The position numbers were made by a program, and so were the translations under genes. Of a stretch of 64,000 nucleotides of DNA, positions 5,734-39,430 are shown piece after piece. The stretch comes from Porphyromonas sp. (GTDB taxonomy: Bacteria; Bacteroidota; Bacteroidia; Bacteroidales; Porphyromonadaceae), in the NCBI GenBank assembly GCA_022772085.1, contig JALFBN010000011.1:124001-188000 (forward strand), read 5' to 3'. Each line of letters starts with the position of its first letter. The stretch's first letter is position 1. Below the pieces are notes generated by a model. That model was not told where the DNA came from, did no database searches, and saw only the letters and a program-made list of their open reading frames with translations.

Positions 5734-5771
5734 TAGGTGTATTCAACAGGAGATCGCAACTCCCCACAAAG

Positions 5772-5807: not shown

Positions 5808-5901
5808 GCACAAAGCGATCCAAGGAAGCCACCTTAATACAGAAATCTGCAAGATAAACAAATCACACACTGACAAAACGAAATAAAATAAACGCAAAAC
5901 A

Positions 5902-5932
5902 CTTGCTAATTGTATTTTTATTAGTAACTTGG
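5902..5932 (+). promoter_or_regulatory. Bacteroidota-type promoter for the EF-G paralogue
   Basis: CTTG at about 5902-5905 and TAACTTGG at 5925-5932 are 19 bp apart. This matches the TTTG / TAnnTTTG pattern with one mismatch in the -7 box. The expected start would give an mRNA leader of roughly 80 nt before the ATG at 6021. Confidence 0.6.
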
Positions 5933-6020
5933 GGGCACAATAGGATAAATACCCTCTAGAGTGCAGGGCATGATCCTATAAAACTAGAAGTATAACAGTT
6001 TAAGACAAGGTTCCTTTATC

Positions 6021-8180
6021 ATGAGATCGTACAAAACAGAAGAGATTAGGAACATCTCGCTTTTGGGAAGTTCCGGCGCAGGAAAAACCACTCTCGCAGA
6101 GGCTATGCTTTTCGAGAGTGGGGTGATAAAACGTCGCGGAGACATTGCCTCAGGCAATACTGTGTGCGACTATTTTCCGGTAGAGAAAGAGTATGGATAT
6201 ACTGTTTTCTCTACCGTTTTTAGTGTAGAGTGGGCAGATCGCAAACTGAACTTCATTGATTGTCCCGGTAGTGACGACTTCGCTGGCGGTGCCGTATCGG
6301 CTATCAATATCACGGACTGTTGCCTTATGGTCGTTAACGCACAGTATGGCGTGGAAGTCGGGCTGATCAATCAATTCCGCCATGTAGAGCGTTTACACAA
6401 ACCTGCAATATTCATTATAAACCAACTAGATCATGACAAGGCGGACTTCCAAGCGAGCGTTGCCCAATTGCGCGAGCGCTACGGCTCCAAGGTGGTTGTC
6501 ACCCAATACCCCGTAGCCTGCGGTCCGAACTTCAATCAAGTGGTGGATCTCCTCCGCATGAAGATGTATCAATGGGGACCCGAAGGAGGCAAGCCTCAAG
6601 TATTGGATATCCCCGAGGATCAACGTGCTATTGCAGAGGAAATGCACCAGCAACTCATCGAGAGTGCAGCCGAACACGAAGAGACCCTTATGGATCGTTT
6701 CTTTGAGCAGGGCAGTCTATCCGAAGAGGACATTGTACAAGGGATGCGCAAGGGGATTGTCCTTGGCGATATGTACCCCGTCTTCTGCGTATCGGCATCC
6801 AAAGATATGTGCGTGCGGCGTACCATGGAGTTCTTGGGCGATGTGGCTCCTCATGTAACAGAAATGCCCAAGCCCGTAACAACTGAAGCTGAAGAGGTAA
6901 ATCCCGATGCTTCCGGTCCCATCAGCCTATACTTTTTCAAGACTACGGTAGAGCCTCACATTGGTGAAGTTTCGTACTTCAAAGTAATGTCGGGTACTGT
7001 ACGCGAAGGGTGCGATCTCATCAATATAAACAGGAAAAGTAAAGAGCGATTGGGACAACTCTATATGGTTGCAGGACAAACACGCACCAAAGTCGAAGAG
7101 CTCATGGCGGGCGATATCGGTGCAACTGTCAAGCTCAAGGATGTACGCCGAGGCAATACCCTGAACGAAAAGGATTGCCCATGGCAGTATCCTGCGATCG
7201 AATACCCGGAACCCAAATTTATGCGTGCGATCAAACCGGCCAATAGTGCCGATGCCGAAAAGCTGAGCGAAGCCCTCCATCGCATGATGGAAGAGGATCC
7301 CACCTGGATCGTGGAGCAGAGTAAAGAGTTGCGTCAAACGATCGTTTACGGTCAAGGGGAGTTTCATCTACGCACACTAAAATGGCGATTGGAACATAAT
7401 GATAAGATCGCTACTGAATTTAGCGAGCCTCGTATCCCTTATAGAGAAACTATCACCAAGGCTGCACGGGCAGACTACCGTCACAAGAAACAATCGGGCG
7501 GTGCCGGACAATTCGGGGAGGTGCACCTGATCATTCAACCCTATAATGAAGGCGATACTCTACCCGAAGTATACAAATTCAATGGACAGGAGTTTAAGAT
7601 CACCGTGCGTGATCGTCAAGAGATTCCTTTGGCATGGGGCGGTAAACTCGTCTATATCAACAGTATTGTAGGAGGCTCCATTGATGCTCGCTTCATGCCT
7701 GCAATCCTCAAAGGAATTATGGAGCGTATGGAGCGTGGCCCACTGACGGGATCATACGCACGAGATGTGGCGGTGATCGTCTATGACGGAAAGATGCACC
7801 CCGTAGATAGTAACGAGGTCTCCTTTATGCTGGCAGGACGCCATGCCTTTAGTGAAGCATTCCGCGAAGCAGCACCCAAGATCCTTGAACCGATATACGA
7901 TGTAGAAGTGTCTGTACCGGCTGATTATATTGGTGATGTGATGAGTGATCTACAAGGTAGACGCGCCATTATCATGGGTATGAATAGTAAGAAGGGCTAC
8001 GAACAACTCCTGGCAAAAGTGCCTCTGAAGGAACTCATGAATTACAGTACGGCACTGAGCTCCCTTTCAGGTGGACGTGCCTCCTTTACGATGAAGTTTG
8101 CTGACTACGAACTGGTACCCTCCGATATTCAAGATAAATTACTGAAAGCATACGCTGAAGAGCAGGAAGCAGAAGACTAA
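6021..8180 (+). CDS. EF-G paralogue (EF-G2 type) with altered GTPase motifs
   Basis: A 719-residue ribosomal translocase-like protein with the full EF-G domain order: a G domain (residues about 1-280), then domains II, III, IV and V. The P-loop GSSGAGKTT (residues 16-24) is intact. The G3 motif reads DCPGSDDF, so the catalytic His of canonical DTPGH is Ser84, and G4 reads NQLD (134-137) instead of NKxD. These changes match the second EF-G of gut Bacteroides (EF-G2), reported to support translation with little or no GTP hydrolysis during carbon starvation. That function is inferred here from the motifs. The gene stands alone between its own promoter and terminator, away from any str operon. 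Confidence 0.88.
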   Translation: MRSYKTEEIRNISLLGSSGAGKTTLAEAMLFESGVIKRRGDIASGNTVCDYFPVEKEYGYTVFSTVFSVEWADRKLNFIDCPGSDDFAGGAVSAINITDCCLMVVNAQYGVEVGLINQFRHVERLHKPAIFIINQLDHDKADFQASVAQLRERYGSKVVVTQYPVACGPNFNQVVDLLRMKMYQWGPEGGKPQVLDIPEDQRAIAEEMHQQLIESAAEHEETLMDRFFEQGSLSEEDIVQGMRKGIVLGDMYPVFCVSASKDMCVRRTMEFLGDVAPHVTEMPKPVTTEAEEVNPDASGPISLYFFKTTVEPHIGEVSYFKVMSGTVREGCDLININRKSKERLGQLYMVAGQTRTKVEELMAGDIGATVKLKDVRRGNTLNEKDCPWQYPAIEYPEPKFMRAIKPANSADAEKLSEALHRMMEEDPTWIVEQSKELRQTIVYGQGEFHLRTLKWRLEHNDKIATEFSEPRIPYRETITKAARADYRHKKQSGGAGQFGEVHLIIQPYNEGDTLPEVYKFNGQEFKITVRDRQEIPLAWGGKLVYINSIVGGSIDARFMPAILKGIMERMERGPLTGSYARDVAVIVYDGKMHPVDSNEVSFMLAGRHAFSEAFREAAPKILEPIYDVEVSVPADYIGDVMSDLQGRRAIIMGMNSKKGYEQLLAKVPLKELMNYSTALSSLSGGRASFTMKFADYELVPSDIQDKLLKAYAEEQEAED

Positions 8181-8205
8181 AGACTGTACCATAACGCAAT
8201 GAATG

Positions 8206-8242
8206 AGGGGTGGGTCGAATTGCTTCGACTCTCCCCTTTTTT
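8206..8242 (+). terminator. Terminator after the EF-G paralogue
   Basis: A 14-bp stem with one mismatch (8206-8219 with 8224-8237) and a TTGC loop is followed by a T6 run, 25 bp after the stop codon. Confidence 0.9.
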
Positions 8243-8613
8243 GTGTCGTTGCAGAGATCAAGAAAAAATAGAGGGCTGAAACTAAAAAAATCCAGCCCAA
8301 GAACAAAAGAAATGGTGGGCTGTAATTCCAAACATCTTGTCCAAGAAAAACTACCCATCACACTACCCTCTGCCTCCTTACTTCTAAAAAGAGAACCAGC
8401 ATCACCTTAAAACAAAAAAAATAGGTTCTCTCCACTATGAGAGAGAACCCATGATCCTTAGTAAAATATGAAGGGAATCCCTAAATCAACGATTAGCAAC
8501 TACGTGGGAAGACATGGCTCAGATCCTTCTGATTGCTTCGCTTTGAGCAACTAGCACTGACAAGAGACTCCCTCTTTAATTCAATCCTCGGGACAAAGAT
8601 ATACAAAAGTATC
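8243..8613. other. Intergenic region, possible small RNA on the minus strand
   Basis: About 370 bp between convergent genes. No convincing protein-coding frame is seen. On the minus strand a TATCTTTG box (8594-8601) sits just after the peroxiredoxin stop codon. It is followed by short hairpins (for example TTGCT...AGCAA near 8533-8550) and ends in the strong terminator at 8411-8449. Confidence 0.5.
8411..8449 (-). terminator. Minus-strand terminator downstream of the peroxiredoxin gene
   Basis: On the minus strand a perfect 9-bp stem GGTTCTCTC/GAGAGAACC with an 8-nt loop runs into a T8-rich tail. It would end the peroxiredoxin transcript about 165 nt after its stop codon, or a separate small RNA. 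Confidence 0.88.
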
Positions 8614-9324
8614 TTATTTACCTAATTTCGCCTCAACATCTTCTTTGCTCACCTGCTTGGTACAGAAGAACCAGTCGTAGCAATGAAGATCCTTTTCCTT
8701 ACCTGCGGCACGATCGCTTGCAATGGCGCATGTAGTGGCGGGAGGAACGATCATTTCGTCCCCGGGACGCCAGTCGGCCGGGAGAGCAACCCCAAAGTTA
8801 TCGACCGTCTGCAAACCGATGAGTACACGCTTGATCTCATCGAAATTACGACCCAAAGAGAGAGGATAGTACATAATGGTACGGATCTTATCCTGAGGGT
8901 CAATGAAGAATACTGCACGCACAGCTGCCGTATTGCTTTCACCAGGTTGGATCATACCATACTTGTGCGCAACATCCATAGAAACATCTACAACTAGAGG
9001 GAATTTAATCTCCACGTTTTTGTACCCGTGCCAGTCAATCTTCTCCTCAATGGTACGAAGCCATGCAATATGACTCTGCAAACCATCTACCGAAAGACCT
9101 ACCAACTGGCAATTCAAAGCCTCAAACTCACTAGCCATATGACCAAAAGTCATAAACTCCGAGGTACAAACAGGGGTAAAATCGGCAGGGTGGCTAAAGA
9201 GGATTTTCCACTGCCCCTTATAATCTGAAGGAAAGTTGATAACACCTTGTGTCGTTACAGCAGTAAAGCTGGGTGCATCCTCGCCAAGACGAGGCATTAC
9301 AATGTTTTGATCGAGTTCTGTCAT
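8614..9324 (-). CDS. Peroxiredoxin (AhpC/TSA, Prx6-like)
   Basis: A 236-residue cytoplasmic thiol peroxidase that would reduce H2O2 and organic peroxides. The peroxidatic cysteine is Cys53 in the PADFTPVCT motif; the conserved Arg follows in the FDEIKR region. The long C-terminal extension, with cysteines near 198, 215 and 221 (CYDWFFC), is typical of Prx6-subfamily enzymes of archaea and anaerobes, where a C-terminal Cys can resolve the sulfenic acid. It is monocistronic with a near-consensus promoter, which fits oxidative-stress defence in an anaerobe. No regulator is adjacent. Confidence 0.93.
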   Translation of the reverse strand: MTELDQNIVMPRLGEDAPSFTAVTTQGVINFPSDYKGQWKILFSHPADFTPVCTSEFMTFGHMASEFEALNCQLVGLSVDGLQSHIAWLRTIEEKIDWHGYKNVEIKFPLVVDVSMDVAHKYGMIQPGESNTAAVRAVFFIDPQDKIRTIMYYPLSLGRNFDEIKRVLIGLQTVDNFGVALPADWRPGDEMIVPPATTCAIASDRAAGKEKDLHCYDWFFCTKQVSKEDVEAKLGK

Positions 9325-9369
9325 ATCGTTATCGTTTTATTGATTGATGATTCATTTTTATCTTTGATG

Positions 9370-9401
9370 CAAAGGTAAAAGGCGTAGGTTATGAGATCAA
9401 A
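9370..9401 (-). promoter_or_regulatory. Promoter of the peroxiredoxin gene
   Basis: On the minus strand TTTG (9398-9401) and a perfect TACCTTTG (9370-9377) are separated by 20 bp. The ATG is about 45 nt downstream of the box. Confidence 0.85.
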
Positions 9402-9411
9402 TGTTTTTGTC

Positions 9412-9419
9412 TATCTTTG
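9412..9419 (+). promoter_or_regulatory. Divergent -7 box for the five-repeat protein
   Basis: A perfect TATCTTTG on the plus strand, 85 bp before the ATG at 9505. No clear -33 box is seen at the usual spacing. It overlaps the divergent peroxiredoxin promoter region, so the two genes may be affected by the same regulator. Confidence 0.55.
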
Positions 9420-9504
9420 CATAGACAAGGTCTATCTACTGAAGGGAAACACTCCGGAGGAGGGACTTTGGATTGAGATCATTAACCCCATTAATCAATG
9501 TAGT

Positions 9505-9924
9505 ATGAAGAAACATCTCTTTGTAATCCTCACAGTACTCTGTGCCCTACTCGCTAGTGTACAGTGGAGTCATGCCCAAAACATTTACAACGCCAACGGA
9601 CAACAAGTTGCCAAGGTAGAATCCGATGGTACACTTCGAGATCGCAACAATCATGCCGTAGGCAAAATCGACCAAGATGGTACGATACGTGATGAGCGGG
9701 CACATGCCGTAGGAAAAATCGAAAGCAATGGAACCATCCGCAATGAACGTGGACAAGCCGTAGGCAAGGTGGAGAGTGATGGTACCGTACGCGACGATCG
9801 CAACAGCAAAGTGGGCAAGATCGAAAGTGATGGCACCGTACGTGATAGACAAAACAGGTCCATCGGAAAAGCATCCGGAGTCAAGAAAGAATGGGCTGCC
9901 GTGGTCATATTCTTTAGATTTTAA
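9505..9924 (+). CDS. Exported five-repeat protein (5-fold beta-flower-like)
   Basis: A 139-residue protein with a signal peptide (MKKHLFVI..., cleavage expected after SHA near residue 24). Five consecutive 17-residue repeats follow (residues 35-119) of the form VGKIESDGTVRDRNNxA. The ORF can be extended upstream to 9391, but the ATG at 9505 puts the signal peptide at the N-terminus and leaves room for the promoter box at 9412, so I chose it. Five identical units suggest a five-bladed closed beta structure, like proteins named 5-fold beta-flower in Bacteroidota. Function is unknown. It ends with a hydrophobic segment (AAVVIFFRF). Confidence 0.8.
   Translation: MKKHLFVILTVLCALLASVQWSHAQNIYNANGQQVAKVESDGTLRDRNNHAVGKIDQDGTIRDERAHAVGKIESNGTIRNERGQAVGKVESDGTVRDDRNSKVGKIESDGTVRDRQNRSIGKASGVKKEWAAVVIFFRF
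9607..9861 (+). repeat. Five tandem 51-bp coding repeats
   Basis: Five in-frame units of 51 bp encode V(A/G)K(I/V)xxDGT(I/L/V)RDxR-type 17-mers. The units have diverged at DNA level (roughly every third base differs), so they look structurally constrained rather than recently expanded. Confidence 0.85.
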
Positions 9925-10016
9925 GCCCATGTCCCCCTCTTAATGGAGCATAACACCCTTAAAGAAGGAAGAGGGACGAAACAGAAAAGGCAGGTTCAAA
10001 CTCATCGGTGCTACAC

Positions 10017-11378
10017 TTAAGCCCGAATGTAGAGTTTGGGACTGCCTTGAAACTTTTTGTAAGCAGCGAGCGAACTCAATATCCACAAAACTTTGCGACG
10101 TGTGCGAATCTGTGGCAGAGGTGCACATCCGTCGGTGAATATAATCAGTCCATCATAAGCGGGGTGTTCCTCAAAAAAAGAGATCAGTGGAGTGAAACTC
10201 GTTCCTCCTCTGGCCATCACCTTAATACCTCGATGCGCCCGATACATCTCCACCAGTGGAAGATGCAACTCAGAATCAAACTGCACCACATCAATCCGCT
10301 CCACTCCCTGAGTAAAAAAGTGGTTGATGACACTTAAAAAATTCTGTATATCTCCATTAGGAATCGACCCACTGACGTCAATACCCACCAGCACTCGAGT
10401 CGTGTAGGGATGGCGAATACCCATCTGCCGAAATCCGTACCGGCGACTGGGCTTCATACGACTCAATACAACTCGGTTGGAGAGGATCCCCATACGAAAA
10501 AGAGCTAGCTGGCGGCGAATATTCACCTGAACTAGCATGGATTGCTCCAGATATTGCTGTATGGGGCGAGGGAGCGCCCCCCATGCATCCGTCTTCACCG
10601 CTTTTTTGAGCAGCATCTCAATGGCTTCGTTATGCACCTCATCCTCCTCCCACAGAGCGGTAAGCTCTTCCCACTCCTCCGCTCTCCGTTGTAAATGCTC
10701 CAATGCATTGTATTGTACTTTGGAGGTAGAAACCGAAGCGGTGGCGATGGCTCGTGCATCTTGTTGATCTGAAGAGTAATGAATAGAATCGGGCAAAGTG
10801 CCGACCGCCTCCTGCTCCGACTTTTTTTCCGAATGGAAGCGAGCATTGCCCCTGCCCCGTCCGCCTTCGGGACTGCGCTCGCCGGCCCCTCCATTCATCC
10901 CCCTCTTTTTGCCGTCGCTACTGCCTTGATCCAAACCACCCTTGGAGGTGGTGCTCTCCTTTGAGGGTATCCCTTGAGGCGGTAATAGGGCATCAACCAT
11001 CGAATAATACTCCTCAAAACTACGGTGAGCAGGCAACTTGAGCATCGTACGTGTCGCCATCGTTTCGTTGGCATCGTAGTACTCAGCAATAGTCATATCA
11101 CTCGCTATCGCCAGACAGAGAGAACGAGAGTTCAACGGCTGACGCTGGTAAGGATGGCGCAACAAGATACGCACAACTTCAATCCGAAGTCGCTTGGCAA
11201 TATACCCTTGGGATCGTCCCTTCAGCAATTCAGAGTTATATTCCAGTACTCCCCCACCAACACGCATCTCCACTTTGAGTTGTAGATTCTCGGAAAGCTC
11301 GTGTGTACAGAGTACATCAAACAACAGTGGATCAGTAAAAAACCAATCATTGGCTATCTGTTGCAATAGCTCTTTCAT
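10017..11378 (-). CDS. vWA-domain protein (VWA-like / DUF2201 type), partner of MoxR ATPase
   Basis: A 453-residue cytoplasmic protein. The C-terminal 130 residues form a von Willebrand A-like domain with a metal-site motif (GIDVSGS) and a later FTDG segment; the N-terminal half is helical and metallopeptidase-like, as in VWA-like proteins of the COG3864 type. The middle (about residues 140-215) is low-complexity, charged and Gly-rich. It overlaps the upstream MoxR gene by 4 bp (ATGA), the usual coupling in MoxR-vWA pairs that act as chaperone-like or metal-insertion machines. The client here is unknown. Confidence 0.85.
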   Translation of the reverse strand: MKELLQQIANDWFFTDPLLFDVLCTHELSENLQLKVEMRVGGGVLEYNSELLKGRSQGYIAKRLRIEVVRILLRHPYQRQPLNSRSLCLAIASDMTIAEYYDANETMATRTMLKLPAHRSFEEYYSMVDALLPPQGIPSKESTTSKGGLDQGSSDGKKRGMNGGAGERSPEGGRGRGNARFHSEKKSEQEAVGTLPDSIHYSSDQQDARAIATASVSTSKVQYNALEHLQRRAEEWEELTALWEEDEVHNEAIEMLLKKAVKTDAWGALPRPIQQYLEQSMLVQVNIRRQLALFRMGILSNRVVLSRMKPSRRYGFRQMGIRHPYTTRVLVGIDVSGSIPNGDIQNFLSVINHFFTQGVERIDVVQFDSELHLPLVEMYRAHRGIKVMARGGTSFTPLISFFEEHPAYDGLIIFTDGCAPLPQIRTRRKVLWILSSLAAYKKFQGSPKLYIRA

Positions 11379-12442
11379 AACTCCCGAATGTAATCCGTTA
11401 TAAGGGTATAGACCGAAGGCTTTTTAGTCATTACGAAGAGGTTGGCATTGGGATAGGTAGCTGACGAAAAAAGATTGATCAAATGCATCAAAGCCTCACG
11501 CAAATCATTTTTTTCGAGCCAATGAAGATATTTCTCTAAGTTGGTACCGACTAAATCGGTTTGATTCTCCGGGTAACCTCGGGCTTCCAGACAACGGAAA
11601 ATATGATCGTTGATCAGGGCGAATTGGGGTAACTTCATCGACTTTAATCGCTTCTGAACAGTCGAGAAATGCAACAGCAGATCTGCTCCGCTGATCACAG
11701 AATTTTCGGTCAAAGACTCGGCAAAGCGAGCAGTAGCCTTGGCTCCAATAATCCCACCTATCAGCAAAAGAGTTGTTTCGTCCAACTCATCCATCCCTTG
11801 GATCACGTCTGAGACCCGCTCCCATGCACGCCGATCGGCACACTTGTCTATCGAGTCTGCATTGACATTGAAGGGGGCATCTAGGGCATCTTGGTTGTTC
11901 TCTATAAAGCGAAGAATCCGCTCATCTACCCCTTTCTGCTCCGCCCAAAACAACCACTCGGACACCGTTGGACGGAATAGATATACGTTGAAACGCGAGA
12001 CAAGGGCGGGATCCAATTCCGTAATTTGGTACTCCTCTCCATCATTCACAGCCGAGATAATGCGAGAACCTGCGGGCAAACTCCTCCCTGCTAACTTGCG
12101 ATTGAGTGCCAAATCCATCACAGACTGCAACATCTCCGGACGGGCACGATTGAGTTCATCCAAAAAGAGAACGATCGGTTTATCGCCCTCAGGGAACCAA
12201 TAGGGAGGCATAAACTCAGTCCTCCCCGTGGCCTCATTGAGGTGAGGCAAGCCGATCAGATCGCCGGGATCACTCATTTGCCCCAAGAAAAGTGTCACAA
12301 CCTCCACCCCACGAGCTCGATAATAATCCGATATAATCCGAGACTTACCGATACCGTGAACACCGACCAACATGATATTGTGATGTGCGGGCGTCCGCTC
12401 TAAGATAGACTGTAATTGCTTATTGTTGATTGAGATAGCCAT
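11375..12442 (-). CDS. MoxR-family AAA+ ATPase
   Basis: An AAA+ ATPase of 355 residues from the chosen start. Walker A is GVHGIGKS, Walker B is VLFLDELNRA, and sensor and arginine-finger regions follow (PALVSRFNVY). The frame extends upstream to 12496, but that would overlap the preceding gene by 47 bp; the ATG at 12442 leaves an 8-bp gap and begins with a typical helix (MAISINNKQL), so I prefer it. It is translationally coupled to the vWA gene downstream. MoxR/vWA pairs remodel or activate partner proteins; nothing here identifies the partner. Confidence 0.88.
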   Translation of the reverse strand: MAISINNKQLQSILERTPAHHNIMLVGVHGIGKSRIISDYYRARGVEVVTLFLGQMSDPGDLIGLPHLNEATGRTEFMPPYWFPEGDKPIVLFLDELNRARPEMLQSVMDLALNRKLAGRSLPAGSRIISAVNDGEEYQITELDPALVSRFNVYLFRPTVSEWLFWAEQKGVDERILRFIENNQDALDAPFNVNADSIDKCADRRAWERVSDVIQGMDELDETTLLLIGGIIGAKATARFAESLTENSVISGADLLLHFSTVQKRLKSMKLPQFALINDHIFRCLEARGYPENQTDLVGTNLEKYLHWLEKNDLREALMHLINLFSSATYPNANLFVMTKKPSVYTLITDYIREL

Positions 12443-12449
12443 ATATTGT

Positions 12450-13304
12450 TTACGAAAGAGATTTCGAGGGATCGACCCACGGATGATTATTGCCATAGGT
12501 TCTTAGTGTCGCATGGGGTAGTTCCATTTGCACTAAAGACTCAACTTCACACCACGAGGCAGTCGCCTTGCAACGATCGACAAAAGAGGGTAAAAAATGC
12601 AATTGATCCATATAATGGCATGTCGAAAGAGCCAGTGTCAATCTCTTTTTTCGTTGCAAACGAAAAGAAAGAAGAGCCTCATGAGCGATAAGTTGTAGAC
12701 TGTACACATGGTGCCCCTGATTCAAAAAAGTAGCGACAACACTTGGGATTGTTTTGAGGAATAGGGAACGGATTTTTTCCTCCTTCGCTTGAGCCACGAC
12801 CACGGTGTCCAATTCATCCGATAACGCAGTTAGCGCACTCTTTGAGGAGAGGAGAAACTCCAAAAGAGCCTCCATCTTCGGAATACATTTTCTGTGCTCC
12901 AATGCATAACCTTCCTGAGGCAGACGATCATATTCCAGAAAGAGGAAAAAGGGATCGTAATACCACGATGTACACCCACCGCAGAGACGGCGATAGGCAT
13001 TACGAGCAATCTTATTGAACAGAATATAGAGCGATATATTATGGAAGCGAATGCGCAACCCTCCGCGAATCGGATACCAAAGATGCGTAAAATGCCGACC
13101 ATCCTCTAAAGCCTCCACTGTCAAACCCAAAAGCAAACATCGCTCACAAAGGCTAGCCATATAGTCCGAAGCCAAAATGCGGTAAGTGGCACGACCCACG
13201 TGGTACTGCTCTGCCGATCCAATCTTAGGACAGACCTCCCCTAACCACGCTCCTAACCGTTGCCTAATCGTTTCAGATAAATCGGGACCGGATACTCCCT
13301 CCAT
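12450..13304 (-). CDS. Conserved-operon protein of unknown function
   Basis: A 284-residue soluble protein, first gene of the MoxR-vWA operon. I do not recognise its family. It has no signal peptide or clear membrane span, is rich in aromatic residues and cysteines (for example LCGGCTSWYYDPFF near residues 103-116), and is mostly helical in composition. Placement 8 bp before the MoxR gene and behind a good promoter suggests it is the dedicated partner or substrate of the MoxR-vWA machine. That is inference from position only. Confidence 0.7.
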   Translation of the reverse strand: MEGVSGPDLSETIRQRLGAWLGEVCPKIGSAEQYHVGRATYRILASDYMASLCERCLLLGLTVEALEDGRHFTHLWYPIRGGLRIRFHNISLYILFNKIARNAYRRLCGGCTSWYYDPFFLFLEYDRLPQEGYALEHRKCIPKMEALLEFLLSSKSALTALSDELDTVVVAQAKEEKIRSLFLKTIPSVVATFLNQGHHVYSLQLIAHEALLSFRLQRKKRLTLALSTCHYMDQLHFLPSFVDRCKATASWCEVESLVQMELPHATLRTYGNNHPWVDPSKSLS

Positions 13305-13410
13305 TTCTTATTGTACTCTCTAATTTAAAGTGATCTCAAGCTCCACCTAGTAAACAAGAGAGGAAGCTAGTTGTTCACCTCACAAGTACCTATCGCAAAG
13401 CTCCTTGGCG

Positions 13411-13444
13411 CAAAGGTACAAAGGATAAGGAGATACCGCTCAAA
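13411..13444 (-). promoter_or_regulatory. Promoter of the unknown-MoxR-vWA operon
   Basis: On the minus strand TTTG (13441-13444) and a perfect TACCTTTG (13411-13418) are 22 bp apart, about 105 bp before the ATG at 13304. Confidence 0.75.
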
Positions 13445-13452
13445 ATGGGCAC

Positions 13453-13498
13453 AAAAAAGCGGCACCATCCCCCTCCACAAAGGAAGAACAGTACCGCT
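13453..13498 (-). terminator. Terminator of the Rnf operon
   Basis: On the minus strand an 8-bp stem AGCGGTAC/GTGCCGCT (one G-T pair) closes a 25-nt loop and is followed by T6, about 45 nt after the rnfA stop codon. Confidence 0.8.
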
Positions 13499-13543
13499 CA
13501 CGTCTCTTTCAAAAATACTTATGTCGTATCCCTTTTACCTCTC

Positions 13544-14116
13544 TTAGGCAATACCACTAAAGCCCATGAAGGCCATAGCTAAGATACTTGCACTAATCAT
13601 AGCAATAGGGATATTGCGCATAGCTTTGGGGAGATTGGCTTTGGAAACCTGCTCGCGGATACCCGCAAACACAACCATAGCCAAGAAAAAACCAAGCCCT
13701 GTAGAAATCGCATAAATCAAGCTTTCAAGGAAGGTAAATTCCTTTTGGATCACGAGGAGAGCAACCCCCAAAACACAACAGTTTGTCGTAATAAGAGGGA
13801 GGAACACCCCGAGCGCTTGATACAAAGGAGGCGAAACCTTCTTGAGTACCATCTCGAGCATCTGTACCAAGGCGGCGATCACAAGGATAAAGGCAATCGT
13901 CTGCAAAAACTCAAGTTGATTGGGTACCAATACAAATTGATTGATCAGAAAGGTTACCATCGTACTGATAGCCAATACGAATGTAACGGCAGCACCCATC
14001 CCTGCGGCGGTATCAATTTTCTTAGAAACCCCGAAGAAGGGACAAATTCCTAAGAACTGCGACAGTACAACGTTATTGACAAAGATAGCCGCAATAATAA
14101 TCATTATATAATGCAT
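13544..14116 (-). CDS. rnfA: Electron transport complex subunit RnfA/RsxA
   Basis: A 190-residue integral membrane subunit with six predicted spans, homologous to RnfE and to NqrE. It forms part of the ion-conducting core of the Rnf complex, which couples ferredoxin:NAD+ oxidoreduction to Na+ or H+ pumping across the inner membrane. The N-terminus MHYIMIIIAAIFVNNVVLSQ and the internal NCCVLGVAL segment, whose cysteine helps bind an intramembrane iron-sulfur centre in characterised complexes, are typical. It is the last gene of the operon, 30 bp after rnfE. Confidence 0.96.
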   Translation of the reverse strand: MHYIMIIIAAIFVNNVVLSQFLGICPFFGVSKKIDTAAGMGAAVTFVLAISTMVTFLINQFVLVPNQLEFLQTIAFILVIAALVQMLEMVLKKVSPPLYQALGVFLPLITTNCCVLGVALLVIQKEFTFLESLIYAISTGLGFFLAMVVFAGIREQVSKANLPKAMRNIPIAMISASILAMAFMGFSGIA

Positions 14117-14146
14117 AGAGCAATCGTATTAATGGTTCTACTTAAA

Positions 14147-14737
14147 TCAAGACTTCTTCGTAATCACGTTGAATAGAGCAATAAGGCAACCCAACACCAT
14201 GAATGCCCCCGGAGGAAGGATGAAAAGGAGTGCTCCATACGTATCGGGATAGATAAGTTGCTCAAACACCTTACCGGACCCCATAAACTCACGCACTGAT
14301 CCAAGGATCGTCAGAGACATCGTGAACCCCAAACCAATGCTTACTCCATCGATGATGGATAGGATCGGATTTTGTTTTGAAGCTACCGACTCTGCACGTC
14401 CGAGAACGATACAGTTCACCACAATAAGAGGAATGAATATACCCAAACTGCTATTGAGCGCGGGAAGGTAGGCTTGGATGAGAAGTTGCAGTACCGTTAC
14501 GAAACCGGCAATCACCACGATAAACGCAGGAATGCGTACTGCATCGGGGATTAACTTTTTGAGGAGGGAGATCACCAAGTTAGAGCAAATAAGCACAAAG
14601 GTGGTGGCCAGTCCCATCATCAAACCATTCGATCCGGAGGTAGTTGTCGCCAAGGTAGGACACATACCAAGGAGCAACACGAAAGTAGGGTTCTCCTTGA
14701 TGAATCCATTGGTAAGCGTCTTTACGTATTGATTCAT
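14147..14737 (-). CDS. rnfE: Electron transport complex subunit RnfE/RsxE
   Basis: A 196-residue multi-span membrane subunit, paralogous to RnfA, with six hydrophobic segments. The LGMCPTLATTTS segment near residues 23-34 and VNCIVLGRAE near residue 108 are family marks, each carrying a cysteine that ligates the intramembrane iron-sulfur centre shared with RnfA in known Rnf/Nqr structures. Its start overlaps the end of rnfG by 4 bp. Confidence 0.96.
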   Translation of the reverse strand: MNQYVKTLTNGFIKENPTFVLLLGMCPTLATTTSGSNGLMMGLATTFVLICSNLVISLLKKLIPDAVRIPAFIVVIAGFVTVLQLLIQAYLPALNSSLGIFIPLIVVNCIVLGRAESVASKQNPILSIIDGVSIGLGFTMSLTILGSVREFMGSGKVFEQLIYPDTYGALLFILPPGAFMVLGCLIALFNVITKKS

Positions 14738-15462
14738 TTGTTTTCTCCTTTCTCGGCAGTAGCCGTATTATCTTCAGTTTCGGGAGCTTCGTCAGCCTCT
14801 TTCGCAGGAGTGGCGTCACTTCCGGTAGCAGCAGAAGATGCATCAACAGCATCTGCAGAAGCTACACCGGCAGCTTCTCCATAATACTTATAGGCTCGAT
14901 TAACGGCATCGAGGAAAGCACGACTGGTAATCGTAGAGGCCGTAATGGCATCAACCCTACCACCATCCTTAGAAACCGTAAGCTGACCATTCTCGGCAGC
15001 CATGTCTACTCCTTTCATATTTTGGATGTTACCACCCTTGGCATCTGTGTGGAACCATTCGTCCATCTTAGCACCAAGTCCGGGAGTTTCGCCATGCTTG
15101 AGTACTGAGAAGTCACAGATAACACCTTTGGCATCGAAGCCCACCATAAGGTCAATGCGACCACCAAAACCATTTTTGGTAAAAGTCTCTATGGCATAAC
15201 CAACAGGCTCTCCACCTTTTTTGGCAACATATACTTTGATGATATCCTTTTCACCTTCCTTAAATTCCATAACCTCATCCAATGGATTGTTATCGAACTC
15301 AGGTACTACCTTTTTAATGGCTTCCGTCTTATTCTTTAGCTCAGTAGCAGCGATCGGCTCATCCGTTACACTTTTCATGACTCCAAGGATCGCACCCACC
15401 ACCAAACAGATGATGGTTAGCGAAAGGATCATATTTGGGAATGTAGATGCTAGCTTTTTCAT
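14734..15462 (-). CDS. rnfG: Electron transport complex subunit RnfG (flavinylated)
   Basis: A 242-residue protein with one N-terminal membrane span and a periplasmic FMN-binding domain (residues about 55-200). The covalent FMN threonine motif, classically (S/T)GAT, here reads TAST in DAITASTITSRAF near residue 175; the last Thr would carry FMN. The last 40 residues are Ala/Asp/Glu-rich, low-complexity and not part of the family core. It overlaps rnfE by 4 bp and rnfD by 4 bp, so the three genes are tightly coupled. Confidence 0.93.
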   Translation of the reverse strand: MKKLASTFPNMILSLTIICLVVGAILGVMKSVTDEPIAATELKNKTEAIKKVVPEFDNNPLDEVMEFKEGEKDIIKVYVAKKGGEPVGYAIETFTKNGFGGRIDLMVGFDAKGVICDFSVLKHGETPGLGAKMDEWFHTDAKGGNIQNMKGVDMAAENGQLTVSKDGGRVDAITASTITSRAFLDAVNRAYKYYGEAAGVASADAVDASSAATGSDATPAKEADEAPETEDNTATAEKGENK

Positions 15463-19595: not shown

Positions 19596-22500
19596 TCAAT
19601 CCATTTTGTTCAATTCATCCAACAAGTCGCTGTAACTGGTAACTTGATGATAGCGTACACGGCTCTCCTTGGGTTCATTGTACAGACGAGAGGCGCATTT
19701 GATCTTCGCCTCCTCCACCCTACGCAGGTAGAGCGACTCCATGCTCCCCTTGGTCTCTGCCACAAAGAAAACGTGCTTTACGTCCGCCTTGTCGTTAAAG
19801 GCAATCGCCCAGTCGGGAGCGTAACTTCCCATAGGGGTAGGGATCTTAAAGGAGCGAGGCAACTTGGCGTAGACGACCACTTCGTCTTCTTTGCCATCCA
19901 GTGTTGCGCCATCCAAAGCCTCGGCAAACTCTCGCTCTACCTTGCTATCGGTAAAAACATAGTCGAGAATGGACTTTTTGGCACGATAGGCATTCTTTAG
20001 TGAAGCCTCCGGATTTTTCTTCGTAAATATATCAAGATCGTACGTACCCTCCGTGCGATTGTAGCTGATACCCTCCACAATCATAGCAGCCTTCTCCGCC
20101 TTGATCATCTTGACCACCTCCCTTATAAACTCCTCTGGATTGTTACAAAACAACTGCCGACGAGCAGGCGTGAGCCCTTGCAGGATGCGTACTACCGTTC
20201 GCCTAGTAAGCGAAGCCCCTTGGGCAATCTCGCCCACAAGGTCGTAGGCGATAGTGGAGGGGCATACCTCTGTAATGACGTGCGTTTGCGTACTCTTAGT
20301 ACCTGAGAAGTCGAGGCTATCTGCCCCCTGACTACCAGTGGTTACCGTGTATTTGAGGGCTGTTATATGCAGGTCTCTATTAAGAGCATTTACCGCATTG
20401 CGGATCAGTTCTTCGCTATCATAGTGTACCGTGTAAACATATTTATGATTGATCTCTCGCCAAAGATCGAGGAACTCCTTCTTTTGTGCATTTTCGTTAA
20501 GCCTATTCTCCGGGGGAGCGGTACTCTCATTGCCGTCCTCAATCATACCCTTCAATACACTCGGATTGTAGATGCCCTCTATCATCTGTAGCACCTCCTC
20601 ACGTATGGGACTGAGCTTCGCACCCATAGGGGCTAAAGTACCCTCCGCTACATCTTGACGGTATTTTGGGGTAAGAAGATCGTTTTCATCTATATAATCG
20701 TTGCCGGCTAACCAAGCAACCACAAGGCTGGCCTCTTGCTGACTTAGGGTACGTTTCTCTCCGTTTTGGGGTATAGAGAAGCGCATAAAATAGTCAAGAC
20801 TGGCTTTTGTGGGACGCTCTCGCAGGGTCTCTTGTGTCTCTCTTTGTAAGGAGTCTACAAAGCTACTGTAGCTCTCGTTGGCTATTACGGTGAGTTTGTT
20901 TACCTCGTGTACCTCCTCGCCCAGCTCGAGGTAATCCATGCGAATGCCCTGCTGATTGACGCACAGGCGTAGCCCTCGCCCCACCTCTTGCCGTTTGGCT
21001 ATGGTAGAGGCGGCGTGCCGTAGAGTACAGATTTGAAATACATTGGGATTGTCCCAACCCTCGCGCAAGGCAGAGTGAGAGAAGATAAATCGGGTAGGTT
21101 CGGCAAAGTCGAGTAGCTGCTCCTTGTTTTTGAGGATCAGATCGTAGGCAGAGACATCTCCCGAGAACAGATCGCCACGAGTGGTTTTGCTATCTATGGC
21201 ATGTCCTTTTTTGTCTATCGAAAAGTAGCCGTTATGCACCTCCTCTGCCGAGAAACGGTGCAGATAGGCTTGATACTCGGGGGCAAAAAGACTTACATTG
21301 GCCGCCACAAAACGTTTGTATTCCTCCTCGAAGAGGGTCCATAGGTAGCCCGGTACCACTTGCCCCTCCTCGTTGTAGCCTTTGTAGTGGGCGACCTCAT
21401 CAATAAAAAAGAGTGAGAGGGTTTTAATACCTCGCTCAAACAGATATTGTTCTTTTTGGAAGTGCGACTCGATGGTCTGCCGTATCTGCACACGCTGAAT
21501 AGTGCGCTCGCTTACATCCCCCATTACCTCGCCTTGGTGCATCTCCTCACCATTGATAAAGAGTATCGTATTGGTATAGGGGTCTATATCTGAGAGGGTA
21601 AACCCTTTGTAGGCGGTGAGGTTGGCAATGGTGTCGAGCCGATCGCCTATGCCAAAAGTATGCAACTCGCGGCGTGTGCCTGAGGAGTGCTTTACCTCGA
21701 TCTCCAAACGCACCTTGGGAGGGTGATCTTGGGAGAGTTTAATGCTATCGAAATAGATATAAGCCTCAGAGCCTCGGAGGTTGTGTAGGGTAATGCCCTT
21801 GACTTGGATTTTTTTGACCAATTTCTGCTTGTAGGCATCGAGCGCATCGAGGGCGTAAATGCAGTTATGAGCGGTTTTGTGCGTGGCGGAGTAGTTGAGC
21901 ACAAAGAGGGGGCAGAACCTTTTAAGCCCCTCTTGGGTTGCCTTGCCCTCCATCTTCTGTGGCTCGTCCATGATGATAATAGGACGATTGGCAGAGAGTA
22001 CATCAATGGGGCGACGGCTGTAAAAGGCGTCTTGCGGTGTGTAGATAATACGTGCCTCATTGTTTCTCGCCCCCTCTCTGAAGGCGTTGAATGCCTGCGT
22101 GTTGATGATCATAACACTGATATCGGCACTCTTGGAGTAAGTATCGAGCGCATGCAGATTGTCCCTACTGTAAACAAAGAAATCTGCTTTCTTTTGATAT
22201 GTCTCGTGGAAGTGCTCCTCCAGCATCTCAAAGCTCTTTTTCACCCCCTCACGTATGGCTATACTCGGCACTACCACTATAAACTTGCTCCAGCCGTAGC
22301 GTCTGTTTAGCTCAAACATGGTTTTTATATAGACGTAGGTCTTGCCCGTACCCGTCTCCATCTCAATATCGAGGGAGCAAGCCCCCAGCCCATCGGGCTT
22401 TATCAGTGCGGTACTGCGTGTGATTTGGTTCTTGTCCTGTATCTTTTGTATGTTGGCCAGTAACGCTTGGGGCGTGAGGGTAATATCGTGATTGCGCATC

Positions 22501-22694
22501 CCGATAGACTCCTCCTCTTGCTCCTCTAGCTCATACTGAGCAAACTGGGGAAGCGGATTTGAGGTGGTAACCTTGCGCTTGCCTAGGTCTCTGCGATAGG
22601 GATTGCCTGCCTGCTTTACCTGCCCATCGAAGACCGCCATGGTACTCTCTACAGCCTCCGTTTGGTAGGGCTGAATCTTAAACAGAAACTTCAT
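19596..22694 (-). CDS. res: Type III restriction enzyme, Res subunit
   Basis: A 1032-residue restriction and translocation subunit. The N-terminal superfamily 2 helicase has Walker A ETGTGKT (113-119), a DEPQ box replacing DEAD near residue 243, SATHKT motif III and a late QEVGRGLRL motif VI. The C-terminal nuclease domain holds PDWAIAF and ETKG near residues 970-1000, matching the PD-(D/E)XK fold. With Mod it cuts DNA between two inversely oriented unmethylated sites. It begins 30 bp after the remains of the mod reading frame. The gene is full length with no frameshift. Confidence 0.94.
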   Translation of the reverse strand: MKFLFKIQPYQTEAVESTMAVFDGQVKQAGNPYRRDLGKRKVTTSNPLPQFAQYELEEQEEESIGMRNHDITLTPQALLANIQKIQDKNQITRSTALIKPDGLGACSLDIEMETGTGKTYVYIKTMFELNRRYGWSKFIVVVPSIAIREGVKKSFEMLEEHFHETYQKKADFFVYSRDNLHALDTYSKSADISVMIINTQAFNAFREGARNNEARIIYTPQDAFYSRRPIDVLSANRPIIIMDEPQKMEGKATQEGLKRFCPLFVLNYSATHKTAHNCIYALDALDAYKQKLVKKIQVKGITLHNLRGSEAYIYFDSIKLSQDHPPKVRLEIEVKHSSGTRRELHTFGIGDRLDTIANLTAYKGFTLSDIDPYTNTILFINGEEMHQGEVMGDVSERTIQRVQIRQTIESHFQKEQYLFERGIKTLSLFFIDEVAHYKGYNEEGQVVPGYLWTLFEEEYKRFVAANVSLFAPEYQAYLHRFSAEEVHNGYFSIDKKGHAIDSKTTRGDLFSGDVSAYDLILKNKEQLLDFAEPTRFIFSHSALREGWDNPNVFQICTLRHAASTIAKRQEVGRGLRLCVNQQGIRMDYLELGEEVHEVNKLTVIANESYSSFVDSLQRETQETLRERPTKASLDYFMRFSIPQNGEKRTLSQQEASLVVAWLAGNDYIDENDLLTPKYRQDVAEGTLAPMGAKLSPIREEVLQMIEGIYNPSVLKGMIEDGNESTAPPENRLNENAQKKEFLDLWREINHKYVYTVHYDSEELIRNAVNALNRDLHITALKYTVTTGSQGADSLDFSGTKSTQTHVITEVCPSTIAYDLVGEIAQGASLTRRTVVRILQGLTPARRQLFCNNPEEFIREVVKMIKAEKAAMIVEGISYNRTEGTYDLDIFTKKNPEASLKNAYRAKKSILDYVFTDSKVEREFAEALDGATLDGKEDEVVVYAKLPRSFKIPTPMGSYAPDWAIAFNDKADVKHVFFVAETKGSMESLYLRRVEEAKIKCASRLYNEPKESRVRYHQVTSYSDLLDELNKMD

Positions 22695-22724: not shown

Positions 22725-23158
22725 CTAAATAATACGTCTGCGTGTATGCGGACTGTAGTAGGCGAAAAGTTGGTCAAAGTTGTCCACTACCTGATCGGAG
22801 TGTATAGAGCTATCTCGCATGGCAAAGTGTTTAGGTTTGCGCTTGGCAATGGCGGTAATAACCTCTTCAGATATATCGCTATCGAAGCAAGCAATGAGTG
22901 TCTTTTTATTTACACTCCACACTTTTTTACCCGCAATTTCTTCGCATTCGATAGATGACGAAAGGGGAATCCCGAGGGAGAGCATCACTTGAAAGAGTAG
23001 ATCCTCCTCCGTGCGATCTTTTTTGATATTGTCTTCTAAGGTATCTAAATTACCCTCAAATAGGTTGTCTTTATACTCGGCAGGGGTGTAGTACACGTCT
23101 GCCATATTGGAGGTATCGAGCTTCAGTACACGGAAGCCCGTATCGAGAATCGGTTTTA
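22725..23158 (-). pseudogene. mod: Detached C-terminal coding part of mod (out of frame)
   Basis: About 145 codons that continue the Mod family C-terminus (GFRVLKLDTSNMADVYY, then KKTLIACFDSD and MRDSSIHSDQVVDNF) but lie in another frame from the upstream methyltransferase, separated by a G10 tract. A short ATG at 23175-23177 could in principle start this piece alone, giving a 150-residue protein, but no such free-standing family is known to me. With 9 or 12 G residues the two parts would fuse into a Mod of about 661 residues, a normal length. A homopolymer sequencing error is the simplest alternative to a real phase-off state. Confidence 0.85.
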
Positions 23159-24711
23159 CCCCCCCCCCGATTAACATTAGTAAACATTTCGGGCTTCTTT
23201 TCTCGTAACTCTCTCAAGATCTTACGCCCGGCACGGCGGATACGCTCCTTACCAATCTCGCAAATATTCTGATAACCAGCCTTGCGTGCCTCGCCCCCCT
23301 CGGGGGGCTCTTCGGGCAATTGCACCATGATGTACTTGCGCTTACCACCATCCTCCGCATTCAGTTGCATTACGGCATGCGCCGTCGTTGCTGACCCACT
23401 GAAGAAGTCAAGGATGAGGGAGTCGGGAGAGGTACCCAATTCTAATATACGCTTTATAGTATATGGAGATTTTGGGTAACTAAAAGAGGCTAATCCCAAA
23501 AGATCTTTCACAGCTTCCGTTCCTCTTTCATTAACAAACTCTTTCTCATCCCAAATACTTCGTTGCATTTTAGTCGATTTTCGATATTTTTGGACAATCA
23601 TGTAACCTCCATTCTGATTAGCTTTTCCAAATATCTCTTTATTCAACGCAGAACGAGCCTTTTCCTCCTTTCCCCAACGCCAAACAGTTTGAATGCCTTG
23701 GGATTTAGAGGGATAAACCTCAAAGAATCCGGCTTTGGGTTCTAAAGATATTTCCATCAATCCATTATTATCCTTATTTTGAGGATTGACATAAAAAGGA
23801 TAACACAGATTAGGACGATTCGTGCTATTGAACTTGACATTCCTATTTCGTAGCTCCATAAGATTAAAGCCACCTTCTTCGTCCTCAAAATGGAAGTGCT
23901 TATCTTTCTCTTCAATTAGATTAAAAGTTGCACGTTCTCCTTTACCATAGATAAGGAGATAGTCATGTTGCAGGGCTATCCCCCCATAATCTCTACCACC
24001 TCTATTATTCATCACAATAGATAGGCTCTTAAAATTACTAGCCCCGAAGACTTCATCGCAAATCTTACGGAGGTTGTGTACCTCGTTGTCGTCTATGGAA
24101 ATGAAAATTACGCCATCGTCACTCAGCAAATCACGAGCCACTAAGAGGCGAGGATAGATCATGCTACACCAATCGGAGTGATAGCTTCCGCGAGTCTCGG
24201 CATTGCGTACATACCTTTGGAGTAGCTGGTTCCCCTCCTCGTCGCTCTGCCCTCCTACTTCTTTCCAAGTCTCCCCATCCATAGAAAACTTGTCGTGGTA
24301 CACAAAGTCGTTGCCTGTATTGTAGGGAGGGTCTATATAGATCATCTTCACCTTCTTAAAATAGGTATTTCGCAGTATCTTGAGTACCTCTAGGTTGTCG
24401 CCCTCTATATAGAGATTTTGCGTAGTATCAAAGTCTACACTCTCAGCACGGCAGGGACGAAGTGTTTGGGTGGTCGGTGTATTGGCTAAGCGGATAGACT
24501 CTCGCTTGCCGGGCCACTCAAAGCGATACCGCTCTTCGTAACCCTCTACAGGCCCGAACGAAAGCTCCTGCCGTAGCAAATCAAAGTCGATAGCCGCAAC
24601 AACCTTGCCCTCGCGATCCATACGCTCAGTGCAACAATTGGGGAATAGCTCCCTAATGCGATTGATGTTCTCGGCAACCTTATCGGGAGTTGCCATATTT
24701 AGCTTTTCCAT
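23071..24711 (-). CDS. mod: Type III DNA methyltransferase Mod, frameshifted at a G10 tract
   Basis: An adenine-N6 methyltransferase of the beta class, 546 residues as it stands. The catalytic DPPY lies at IYIDPPYNTGND near residue 127. The central region (about 230-410) is the variable target-recognition domain. The SAM-binding motif DFFSGSATTAHAVM is near residue 445. After NVNRGGG the frame is lost and 28 unrelated residues follow before the stop at 23071. The missing C-terminal domain helps Mod dimerise and bind Res in characterised type III enzymes, so this copy may be inactive or partly active. It is the first gene of the mod-res operon; a promoter box lies 38 bp upstream. Confidence 0.92.
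   Translation of the reverse strand: MEKLNMATPDKVAENINRIRELFPNCCTERMDREGKVVAAIDFDLLRQELSFGPVEGYEERYRFEWPGKRESIRLANTPTTQTLRPCRAESVDFDTTQNLYIEGDNLEVLKILRNTYFKKVKMIYIDPPYNTGNDFVYHDKFSMDGETWKEVGGQSDEEGNQLLQRYVRNAETRGSYHSDWCSMIYPRLLVARDLLSDDGVIFISIDDNEVHNLRKICDEVFGASNFKSLSIVMNNRGGRDYGGIALQHDYLLIYGKGERATFNLIEEKDKHFHFEDEEGGFNLMELRNRNVKFNSTNRPNLCYPFYVNPQNKDNNGLMEISLEPKAGFFEVYPSKSQGIQTVWRWGKEEKARSALNKEIFGKANQNGGYMIVQKYRKSTKMQRSIWDEKEFVNERGTEAVKDLLGLASFSYPKSPYTIKRILELGTSPDSLILDFFSGSATTAHAVMQLNAEDGGKRKYIMVQLPEEPPEGGEARKAGYQNICEIGKERIRRAGRKILRELREKKPEMFTNVNRGGGKTDSRYGLPCTEARYLQYGRRVLHPCRV
23159..23168 (-). repeat. G10 homopolymer tract inside mod
   Basis: Ten consecutive C on the plus strand (G10 in the coding sense) at codon about 515. 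Frame analysis: length 10 gives the truncated product; lengths 9 and 12 restore the full Mod frame. Tracts of this length are classic slipped-strand mispairing sites. Confidence 0.9.
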
Positions 24712-24748: not shown

Positions 24749-24756
24749 CAAAGATA
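24749..24756 (-). promoter_or_regulatory. -7 promoter box of mod-res
   Basis: A perfect TATCTTTG on the minus strand, 38 bp before the mod ATG. No good -33 match at standard spacing. Confidence 0.55.
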
Positions 24757-24856: not shown

Positions 24857-24891
24857 AAAAAAATGCACCCCGAACCGAAGTCCGGAGTGCA
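24857..24891 (-). terminator. Terminator of the T9SS protease gene
   Basis: On the minus strand a stem of about 12 bp capped by a TTCG tetraloop (TGCACTCCGGAC / GTTCGGGGTGCA, with G-T pairs) is followed by T7, about 40 nt after the stop codon. Confidence 0.93.
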
Positions 24892-24931
24892 TAATAATTA
24901 GCCCTCTAATTAGGGGCTATCCGTATGGAAA

Positions 24932-38191: not shown

Positions 38192-39430
38192 ATGCTCCAC
38201 AATACACCATCCAAGAAACTAGAGCCGTGGCTCAAGGCCATCAGGAAAAAGGAGGAGACTCTCTCCAATCGAGAGAGCCTTCCCTTTGATCTTGATGAGG
38301 CATGGGCCAAACTTGAGGAGGCACTCCCTGCCGTTCCTGCCAAGCAGGTGTCTGCCCCAAAGTCGAGAAGGCACCTCACATGGCACGCATGGGTCGGCAT
38401 GGCTGCAAGCTTTGCACTCGTCGTCGGCATCGCTTGGAGCATTTGGAGTAGTCTGGAGCACCAAGCAATAGCACCAGACCAACCGCTGATAGCCCAACAG
38501 AACGGTTCTGCTCAATCGCCTCAGTCTCCTGACTTTATAGAGGCTCCATTGTCGATCCCAACGACTCCAAGCAATCAGCATCATGAAAAAGCAGACGATG
38601 CCGTGCGTTACAAGGAAGTTTATACCGAAAATCTCGATATCAAAGAGACGCTTCTCCCCCGGGAGGAGATCGCTCCCGATGAAGCCTCCTCTAGCGATGA
38701 GCCTCCCACACCAACCCCTCAGAGAAACATGGGCCCTGAACGAGACCTCTCGACTCCGAGCTATCAGGATATGGGGACTCCCTCCTACTCCGATTTCACT
38801 CCACAAGTACGTACGGGGGTATTCCTCTGCAACAACATAAGTTCGCAGAGTCAGCGCAATACGCCCAATTCCTTTGACGGAGGGGGGGGGATGCAGCTCA
38901 TGTCTCGCTCAATGAACCACTCTTTACTCCAAACAGAAATTGCACGGGCCTACGATGTCGCTTCATTTCGACACTTTCAACCCCTGCACGTCGGAGCAAA
39001 AATCAGCGTAGACCTCGGGAGGCGCACGGCCCTAGAGTCGGGCTTAGTCTACTCTTACCTAAGAAGTACCCTAAACAACTATGGGTCTGTCGATTGTAAA
39101 AACCTACAGCAGGTACATTACATAGGTATACCTCTCGGATTCAACTTCTCCCTCTACAAAACAGCACGCACACGTCTCTATACGGGGATCTCGGGACGGG
39201 TGGACAAAGCTATCAGTGCAACGCTACTCGAGGGTTCTCTCGGTGAAGAGCCTTGGCAAATGTCTCTACAAGGCAAGGTGGGAGCATCTTATGACATTGT
39301 GTCTCACTTCGGATTCTTTATGGAGGCAGGACTCGCCTACTACTTCAATGACGAATCCCGCCTGCAGACCTATTACAAGCAACATCCGCTGATCCTCTCC
39401 TTCTCTGCCGGTATTCAATTTAATTATTGA
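38192..39430 (+). CDS. Dual-membrane anti-sigma factor (Dma-like): cytoplasmic domain, TM helix, linker, OM beta-barrel
   Basis: A 412-residue protein with four parts: a charged cytoplasmic region (1-62) that should bind the sigma factor; one transmembrane helix (about 66-88); a Pro/Ser/Glu-rich periplasmic linker (about 89-200); and a C-terminal outer-membrane beta-barrel domain (about 204-412, with ALESGLVYSYLRST and a terminal FSAGIQFNY). This matches dual membrane-spanning anti-sigma factors described in Bacteroides, which couple the outer membrane to an ECF sigma factor and affect vesiculation. Here the coding sequence holds a G9 tract (codons 231-233, before Met234) at the first barrel loop. 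As sequenced the frame is intact. Confidence 0.83.
   Translation: MLHNTPSKKLEPWLKAIRKKEETLSNRESLPFDLDEAWAKLEEALPAVPAKQVSAPKSRRHLTWHAWVGMAASFALVVGIAWSIWSSLEHQAIAPDQPLIAQQNGSAQSPQSPDFIEAPLSIPTTPSNQHHEKADDAVRYKEVYTENLDIKETLLPREEIAPDEASSSDEPPTPTPQRNMGPERDLSTPSYQDMGTPSYSDFTPQVRTGVFLCNNISSQSQRNTPNSFDGGGGMQLMSRSMNHSLLQTEIARAYDVASFRHFQPLHVGAKISVDLGRRTALESGLVYSYLRSTLNNYGSVDCKNLQQVHYIGIPLGFNFSLYKTARTRLYTGISGRVDKAISATLLEGSLGEEPWQMSLQGKVGASYDIVSHFGFFMEAGLAYYFNDESRLQTYYKQHPLILSFSAGIQFNY
38882..38890 (+). repeat. G9 homopolymer tract in the anti-sigma/barrel gene
   Basis: Nine G encode Gly231-233 in frame. Loss of one G leads to a stop within nine codons; gain of one G leads to a stop about 65 codons later. 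Either change would remove nearly all the beta-barrel while keeping the cytoplasmic domain and membrane helix. Confidence 0.9.

Follow-up and report, generated by a model that had tools for sequence, protein, structure and literature searches.

The analysed window, a 64,000-nucleotide stretch of a Porphyromonas sp. contig, carries a type III restriction-modification unit on its minus strand in which the methyltransferase gene, mod, is divided between two reading frames. The first piece of mod (23071..24711, −) encodes the N-terminal, methyltransferase and target-recognition regions, as shown by PF01555, the MTase_III profile PDLC03634, EcoP15I (6k0w) and codon usage. The second piece (22725..23177, −), in the next frame, was assigned to an EcoP15I-like C-terminal domain from the PDLC03634 profile, relatives and predicted fold. 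Sequence and alignment place a homopolymer near the boundary of these two domains: C10 on the plus strand at exactly 23159..23168, which is G10 in the sense of mod. The adjoining res (19596..22694, −) is full length (1032 aa; ResIII, RE_endonuc and REase_III profiles, the last covering residues 1-1029) and, as expected of a type III system, combines a ResIII/DEAD helicase with SF2 motifs, among them TGTGKT (22338-22355, −) and DEPQ (21957-21968, −), and an endonuclease domain at residues 906-1020. It starts at 22694, 30 bases beyond the end of the second mod frame and 376 bases beyond the early stop of the short Mod.

A terminator-like stem of the upstream gene (24863..24892, −; 13 pairs, then T-rich) separates the mod-res unit from that gene. 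Terminator-like sites were somewhat more numerous between 19300 and 25000 than in shuffled sequence (9 found, 5.5 expected), while a Sigma-70 promoter scan of the same region gave no more hits than shuffling would (7 against 7.7 expected). The sequence TATCTTTG (24749..24756, −), about 40 bases 5′ of the mod start, may be a −7 element of the Bacteroidota type.

As assembled, the first mod ORF runs to 546 residues, with 514 before the tract and an out-of-frame stretch of 28 at its end. The second frame is open for 150 residues from an ATG at 23175-23177, six bases 5′ of the tract. Of the 621 positions of PDLC03634, the PADLOC type III methyltransferase profile, the first piece matched 2-486 (E 3.3e-167) and the second 488-616 (E 3e-34), placing the break at 486/488. 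Codon usage, scored after training on 18 long ORFs of the window, gave +0.217 bits per codon in the mod frame before the tract; over the 434 bases past the tract it was −0.75 in the assembled frame but +0.220 in the other, and the remaining frames scored −0.74 to −1.0. The 28-codon tail itself scored −0.106 bits per codon as read and +0.419 in the other frame. Since a single profile spans both frames and the coding signal shifts frame at the tract, we conclude that the two frames are one mod gene, containing within its coding sequence a repeat whose length sets the frame. At tract lengths that bring the frames into agreement, 514 residues, the linker glycines and 144 residues after the tract give about 661.

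A first-pass annotation had described a type III mod with G10 in its coding sense, a 546-residue product ending in a 28-residue junk tail, and a conserved C-terminus intact in the next frame, to be regained in a protein of about 661 residues at in-frame tract lengths. The run, the ORF length, the negative coding score of the tail and the profile match over positions 488-616 all agree with that description. Its assignment to type III also held, given the motifs, the PF01555 and MTase_III profiles and the intact res: DPPY (residue 127), the recognition region and DFFSGS (of the FxGxG type, residue 435) follow one another in the order of a type III, beta-class N6-adenine methyltransferase, and PF01555 spans residues 121-463. 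Both catalytic motifs lie 5′ of the tract, which falls at residue 515, so the assembled form keeps them and loses the C-terminal domain, as the annotation had also proposed.

Most relatives share a conserved helix ending like KERIRRAGRKI, followed by a linker of widely differing length and sequence and then by a stretch resembling LDTGFRV, and the tract sits inside this variable linker. In intact relatives the two parts of mod are continuous (L081, a Muribaculaceae MAG; L082, a Prevotella MAG; L006, L007, L008, L085 and others). The mod of L081, 638 residues from its first ATG, is 71% and 62% identical to the two pieces; the second piece matches L098 at 63% identity, and in both of these relatives the matching region belongs to a long frame continuous with the methyltransferase part.

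Conservation was scored by leaving out each row in turn and counting columns in which a residue was present in no fewer than five, and at least 80%, of the other rows and was the same in all of them. The first piece kept 74 of 74 such invariant columns (15-row alignment) and the second 30 of 31 (six-row alignment), where the relatives' own rows keep 67 to 100% in the first part and 79 to 97% in the second. Because the conserved columns are nearly all kept, the tract is, as far as seen, all that separates the two halves of mod. This shows that their intactness points to recency or to maintenance, without telling which.

In EcoP15I Mod, the methyltransferase domain comprises residues 62-262 and 390-516 and the C-terminal domain residues 539-644 (PMC4490356). 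Residue 497 of the present Mod aligns with residue 501 of the EcoP15I Mod chain. Searched by sequence against the PDB, the C-terminal piece by itself reached a best E of 0.53, and a six-row profile of it returned no hits; as these searches found no relative, its fold was predicted. The model of the second piece had a mean pLDDT of 74.4, with the first 21 residues mostly below 50. Foldseek ranked the two EcoP15I Mod chains, 4zcf_A and 4zcf_B, first and second (probability 1.00, E 2.1e-3 and 5.0e-3; TM by query 0.52-0.53, rmsd 3.2-3.3 over 109-110 columns), none of the PDB chains matching with E below 0.001. When the Mod of L081, an intact relative, was modelled (mean pLDDT 71.5), EcoP15I Mod again provided the top two PDB matches (E 1.4e-33 and 3.3e-33; 684-685 alignment columns including gaps; TM by query 0.56). 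The rmsd values of 11.5 and 16.2 indicate that single domains agree better than their arrangement.

The lost piece therefore looks like an EcoP15I-type C-terminal domain, judging from the models; as assembled it lies in the other frame, and the short Mod is without it. The present Mod thus appears to share with EcoP15I Mod (4zcf) its domain order and the predicted fold of both parts, C-terminal domain included, but the C-terminal piece has no HMMER-detectable sequence similarity to its counterpart. The strand that starts at LDTGFRV (residues 509-515 in the L081 model) lies 3′ of the tract and aligns to EcoP15I 512-518, partly inside the methyltransferase domain, at its very end. The short Mod probably also lacks this last strand of the methyltransferase fold. 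EcoP15I Mod is not known to have a repeat tract.

The closest parallel to this arrangement is ModH of Helicobacter pylori (HP1522/jhp1411/HPP12_1497). In its gene, modH, a poly-G tract lies 104 bp past the DNA recognition domain, and depending on the tract length the enzyme is either full-length or truncated and inactive (PMC5700931); among strains the tract ranges from G8 to G15, ON or OFF by length, and the recognition region ends near residue 449 (PMC3230613). Both genes are type III mods with a pure coding G tract past the DNA recognition domain, tract lengths around 8-15 and a truncated OFF product, the tract lying near residue 484 in ModH (by arithmetic on these published positions) and at 515 in the present Mod. 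They differ in that length variation, methylation and regulated genes have been reported for ModH, whereas the present mod is known from one assembled sequence; we also infer that the two belong to different phyla. In a second precedent, HP1369-HP1370 (M.HpyAXVII of H. pylori 26695), a type III mod is likewise carried in two ORFs through a late frameshift, near the 3′ end; PMC3936762 reports that the motif is unmethylated when the gene is split and that frame correction yields an active enzyme, a restoration of activity that sets it apart from the present mod. The first-pass annotation had regarded a tract three quarters along mod as unusual. The late position, downstream of the FxGxG motif, stands, but it is less unusual than supposed, the breaks of modH and HP1369-HP1370 also being late (PMC5700931, PMC3936762). 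With these direct precedents for a late position, we file the present mod as a candidate ModH-like member.

Elsewhere, the MmyCI mod of Mycoplasma mycoides has an AG dinucleotide repeat from nucleotide 320 of the gene (PMC3498834); there too a repeat in the coding region sets ON and OFF, but it lies so early that little of the protein is left in the OFF product. Simple repeats occur in 17.4% of type III mod genes, a figure cited in PMC7394358, which also describes inverting type I systems in Porphyromonas gingivalis and Tannerella forsythia. Inverting type I systems are described for Prevotella intermedia as well, two strains of which lacked any predicted type III system (PMC5608340). Our literature search found no phase-variable type III example from Porphyromonas or the Bacteroidetes, although its noisy results make this weak evidence of absence.

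We favour, with moderate confidence, the interpretation that this is a type III unit in which mod carries G10 in a variable linker, and in which slipped-strand changes in tract length switch between a full-length and a truncated Mod. Slipped-strand mispairing would most likely alter the length of the G tract at a raised rate. In the minus-strand order mod, then res, the tract lies between the methyltransferase domain and a C-terminal domain presumed to contact Res, such that lengths divisible by three would give a full-length Mod and other lengths one that lacks the C-terminal domain; the length in the assembled genome is an OFF one. In the OFF state, restriction would be lost for want of contact with Res, and polarity on res, behind its 376 untranslated bases, may add to that loss. 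By analogy with H. pylori, methylation would probably be lost too, and other genes might be affected, as in a phasevarion.

This phase-variable reading is favoured because the profile splits and the frame changes at the tract, signs of decay are absent and Res is complete, and because the break falls in a linker of variable length, at a run that, alone among the genome's 24 long G/C runs, was seen by eye to interrupt a gene, with modH and other repeat-bearing mods as precedents. If the tract varies, the lineage would have a reversible defence, possibly a phasevarion of the ModH type. The position of the tract at a domain joint would also allow a clean test of the methylating ability of a type III Mod that lacks the C-terminal domain.

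A chance G run that slipped once in a tolerant linker could also account for the locus. The mod would then be a young pseudogene, its reversal possible but unselected; we regard such recent inactivation as unlikely, though a number of observations in relatives and in the genome itself suit it and weaken the phase-variable reading. Relatives of the first piece occur in 7 of the 26 genus genomes searched (own genome included), with no conspecific among these 26; outside the own genome, the best long match is 50% identical (G020) and partial matches reach 62% (G016). For the C-terminal domain, a search of 393 genomes of the order found relatives in 21, and one of 395 genomes of the phylum in 24, the own genome being counted in both. 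None of 51 linkers from relatives' mods contained a G/C run longer than 5. This set consisted of 52 rows minus L086, which is another ORF, and includes the second mod of the own genome (L117); loci that the script's motif missed, or that were merged as duplicates, were left out of it and scanned as whole loci only (among them L083, L085, L087-L092, L094, L138, L141, L144, L157 and L162). Of 71 loci listed, one (L096) is the window itself, and in the remaining 70, some of them overlapping, there was no G/C run of at least 9, the longest being a run of 8 in L095, at 11001 and outside its mod. As the tract is absent from the 51 linkers and the 70 loci, it appears, as far as seen, to be private to its own lineage. 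We rejected the idea of a conserved switch of this Mod family on the same linker count.

An exact search of viral contigs for the flanks of the tract, with 0-15 bases allowed between them, gave no matches, and in a protein search of viral contigs 7 stretches matched a pattern and none was confirmed.

Inactivation also occurs in this family without a repeat. The own genome's other type III mod, 56% identical to the first piece, has an in-frame TGA in its recognition region and no repeat, which suits decay. The mods of L095 (Riemerella columbina, 4842-6712) and L097 are frame-split in the recognition region, not at the linker, and the longest homopolymers in their split zones are 6 and 4 bases. 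If both type III mods of the own genome are truly off, the strain may have no functional type III system of this family, and the pattern of two broken mods fits relaxed selection as well as switching. The HP1522 homologue of modH also counts against the phase-variable reading: frame correction restored jhp1411 but not HP1522 (PMC3936762), and an OFF tract can therefore mask a gene inactivated by something else. Against recent inactivation, no further damage was seen in mod or res, and the break lies inside the run itself, where reversal is easiest.

The second type III system of the own genome (L119, G000:C6:1-16000, at about 5184-15100) has an intact res (1040 aa) and adjoins a DUF4391 protein, a BRO-N protein and a 1080-aa SNF2/ResIII helicase. 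It is followed by an ORF at 15524 that is presumably transposase-like.

Run counts are a further point on the side of inactivation. The genome contains 24 G/C runs of at least 8 (32-41 expected), 10 of at least 9 (7.8-10.1 expected) and 4 of at least 10 (1.9-2.5 expected), where expectations were computed with composition and Markov models built on the window and overlapping matches were merged. Runs of at least 10 are thus barely more common than chance predicts, while the chance of one in a single gene of mod's size is about 0.002. When the 24 runs were assigned by eye to genes or gaps, using stop-to-stop frames and no annotation, 11 were in frame within genes, 12 were intergenic or in doubtful frames, and one, the G10 of mod, was seen to break an evident gene. 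The tract is therefore special by its effect and hardly by its number.

Longer runs are over-represented elsewhere in the genus, those inspected lying outside evident genes. In nine other species (G001-G009), there were 11 G/C runs of at least 12, overlapping matches merged, against about 1 expected (0.116 per 2.2-Mb genome at the window's composition). Two of the 11 lie at contig ends, and 10 were inspected together with two runs of 11, giving 12 runs of at least 11 in 11 regions. None of these was seen by eye to lie in an evident gene, although four fall in stop-to-stop frames of 153-700 codons, and a genus-wide use of poly-G tracts inside genes was not supported. The position of the inspected runs of at least 12 outside evident genes further weakens the phase-variable reading of mod.

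Homopolymers are the commonest place for length errors, and the genome is a 17-contig draft (99.95% complete). The assembled length could thus be a sequencing or assembly error, or the consensus of a mixed population, with the gene whole in the sequenced strain. We judge this improbable: in the same assembly, the 11 G/C runs of 8-9 bases inside genes were all in frame by eye, which disfavours frequent length errors, with the limit that no other genic run of at least 10 serves as a control.

An alternative of similarly low probability is a switch of restriction alone, in which the short Mod still methylates and Res, without the C-terminal domain, cannot dock, so that cells switching ON are already protected. 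Slippage would then toggle cutting while the genome stays methylated, which would avoid self-cutting when a silent type III system returns to ON. In EcoP15I, the Mod dimer forms through the N-terminal and methyltransferase domains and Res is contacted by the C-terminal domain of one of the two Mod subunits, ModA (PMC4490356); the present break leaves the dimerising and catalytic parts nearly whole and removes the C-terminal domain. However, the LDTGFRV strand, partly in the EcoP15I methyltransferase domain, is past the tract, the 28-residue foreign tail may destabilise the protein, and docking need not be lost, as the methyltransferase domain of ModA also touches Res (PMC4490356). The late-break OFF forms of H. 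pylori are described as inactive or unmethylated (PMC5700931, PMC3936762), and by analogy these precedents argue against an uncoupled Res beside a short Mod that is still active; the first-pass annotation had suggested a possible uncoupling of Res with a short Mod left.

Leaky or programmed expression, in which ribosomal or transcriptional slippage supplies some full-length Mod or the ATG at 23175-23177 starts a separate C-terminal chain, so that the gene is not truly OFF, is very improbable despite that ATG just before the tract, since no unusual RNA structure that might stimulate frameshifting was found near the tract (z −1.18, with 21 of 200 shuffles folding equally well) and the relatives' linkers examined have no tract.

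Other G/C runs were noted as well. Those in the other species of the genus (L163-L173) are 11-16 bases long, over-represented relative to composition and mostly intergenic by eye. In two species, C13 and C14 tracts (L170, at 2164, and L172, at 2227) lie between common flanks, GGCATTTTA and ATTTTACATTT, so that the position of the tract is kept and its length differs. Near a contig end in another (L166, G002:C12, 2347-2397), G13 and G11 are each preceded by the same 25-base sequence, forming a repeated unit with its own tract. Within the window, a G9 run at 38882-38890 lies in frame in a 413-codon stop-to-stop frame, where slippage might arise in future. A G14 (L121, G000:C11:54000-59000, at 2368-2381; 0.01 expected) is the genome's longest G/C run and possibly a promoter tract, upstream of a putative glycogen synthase gene.
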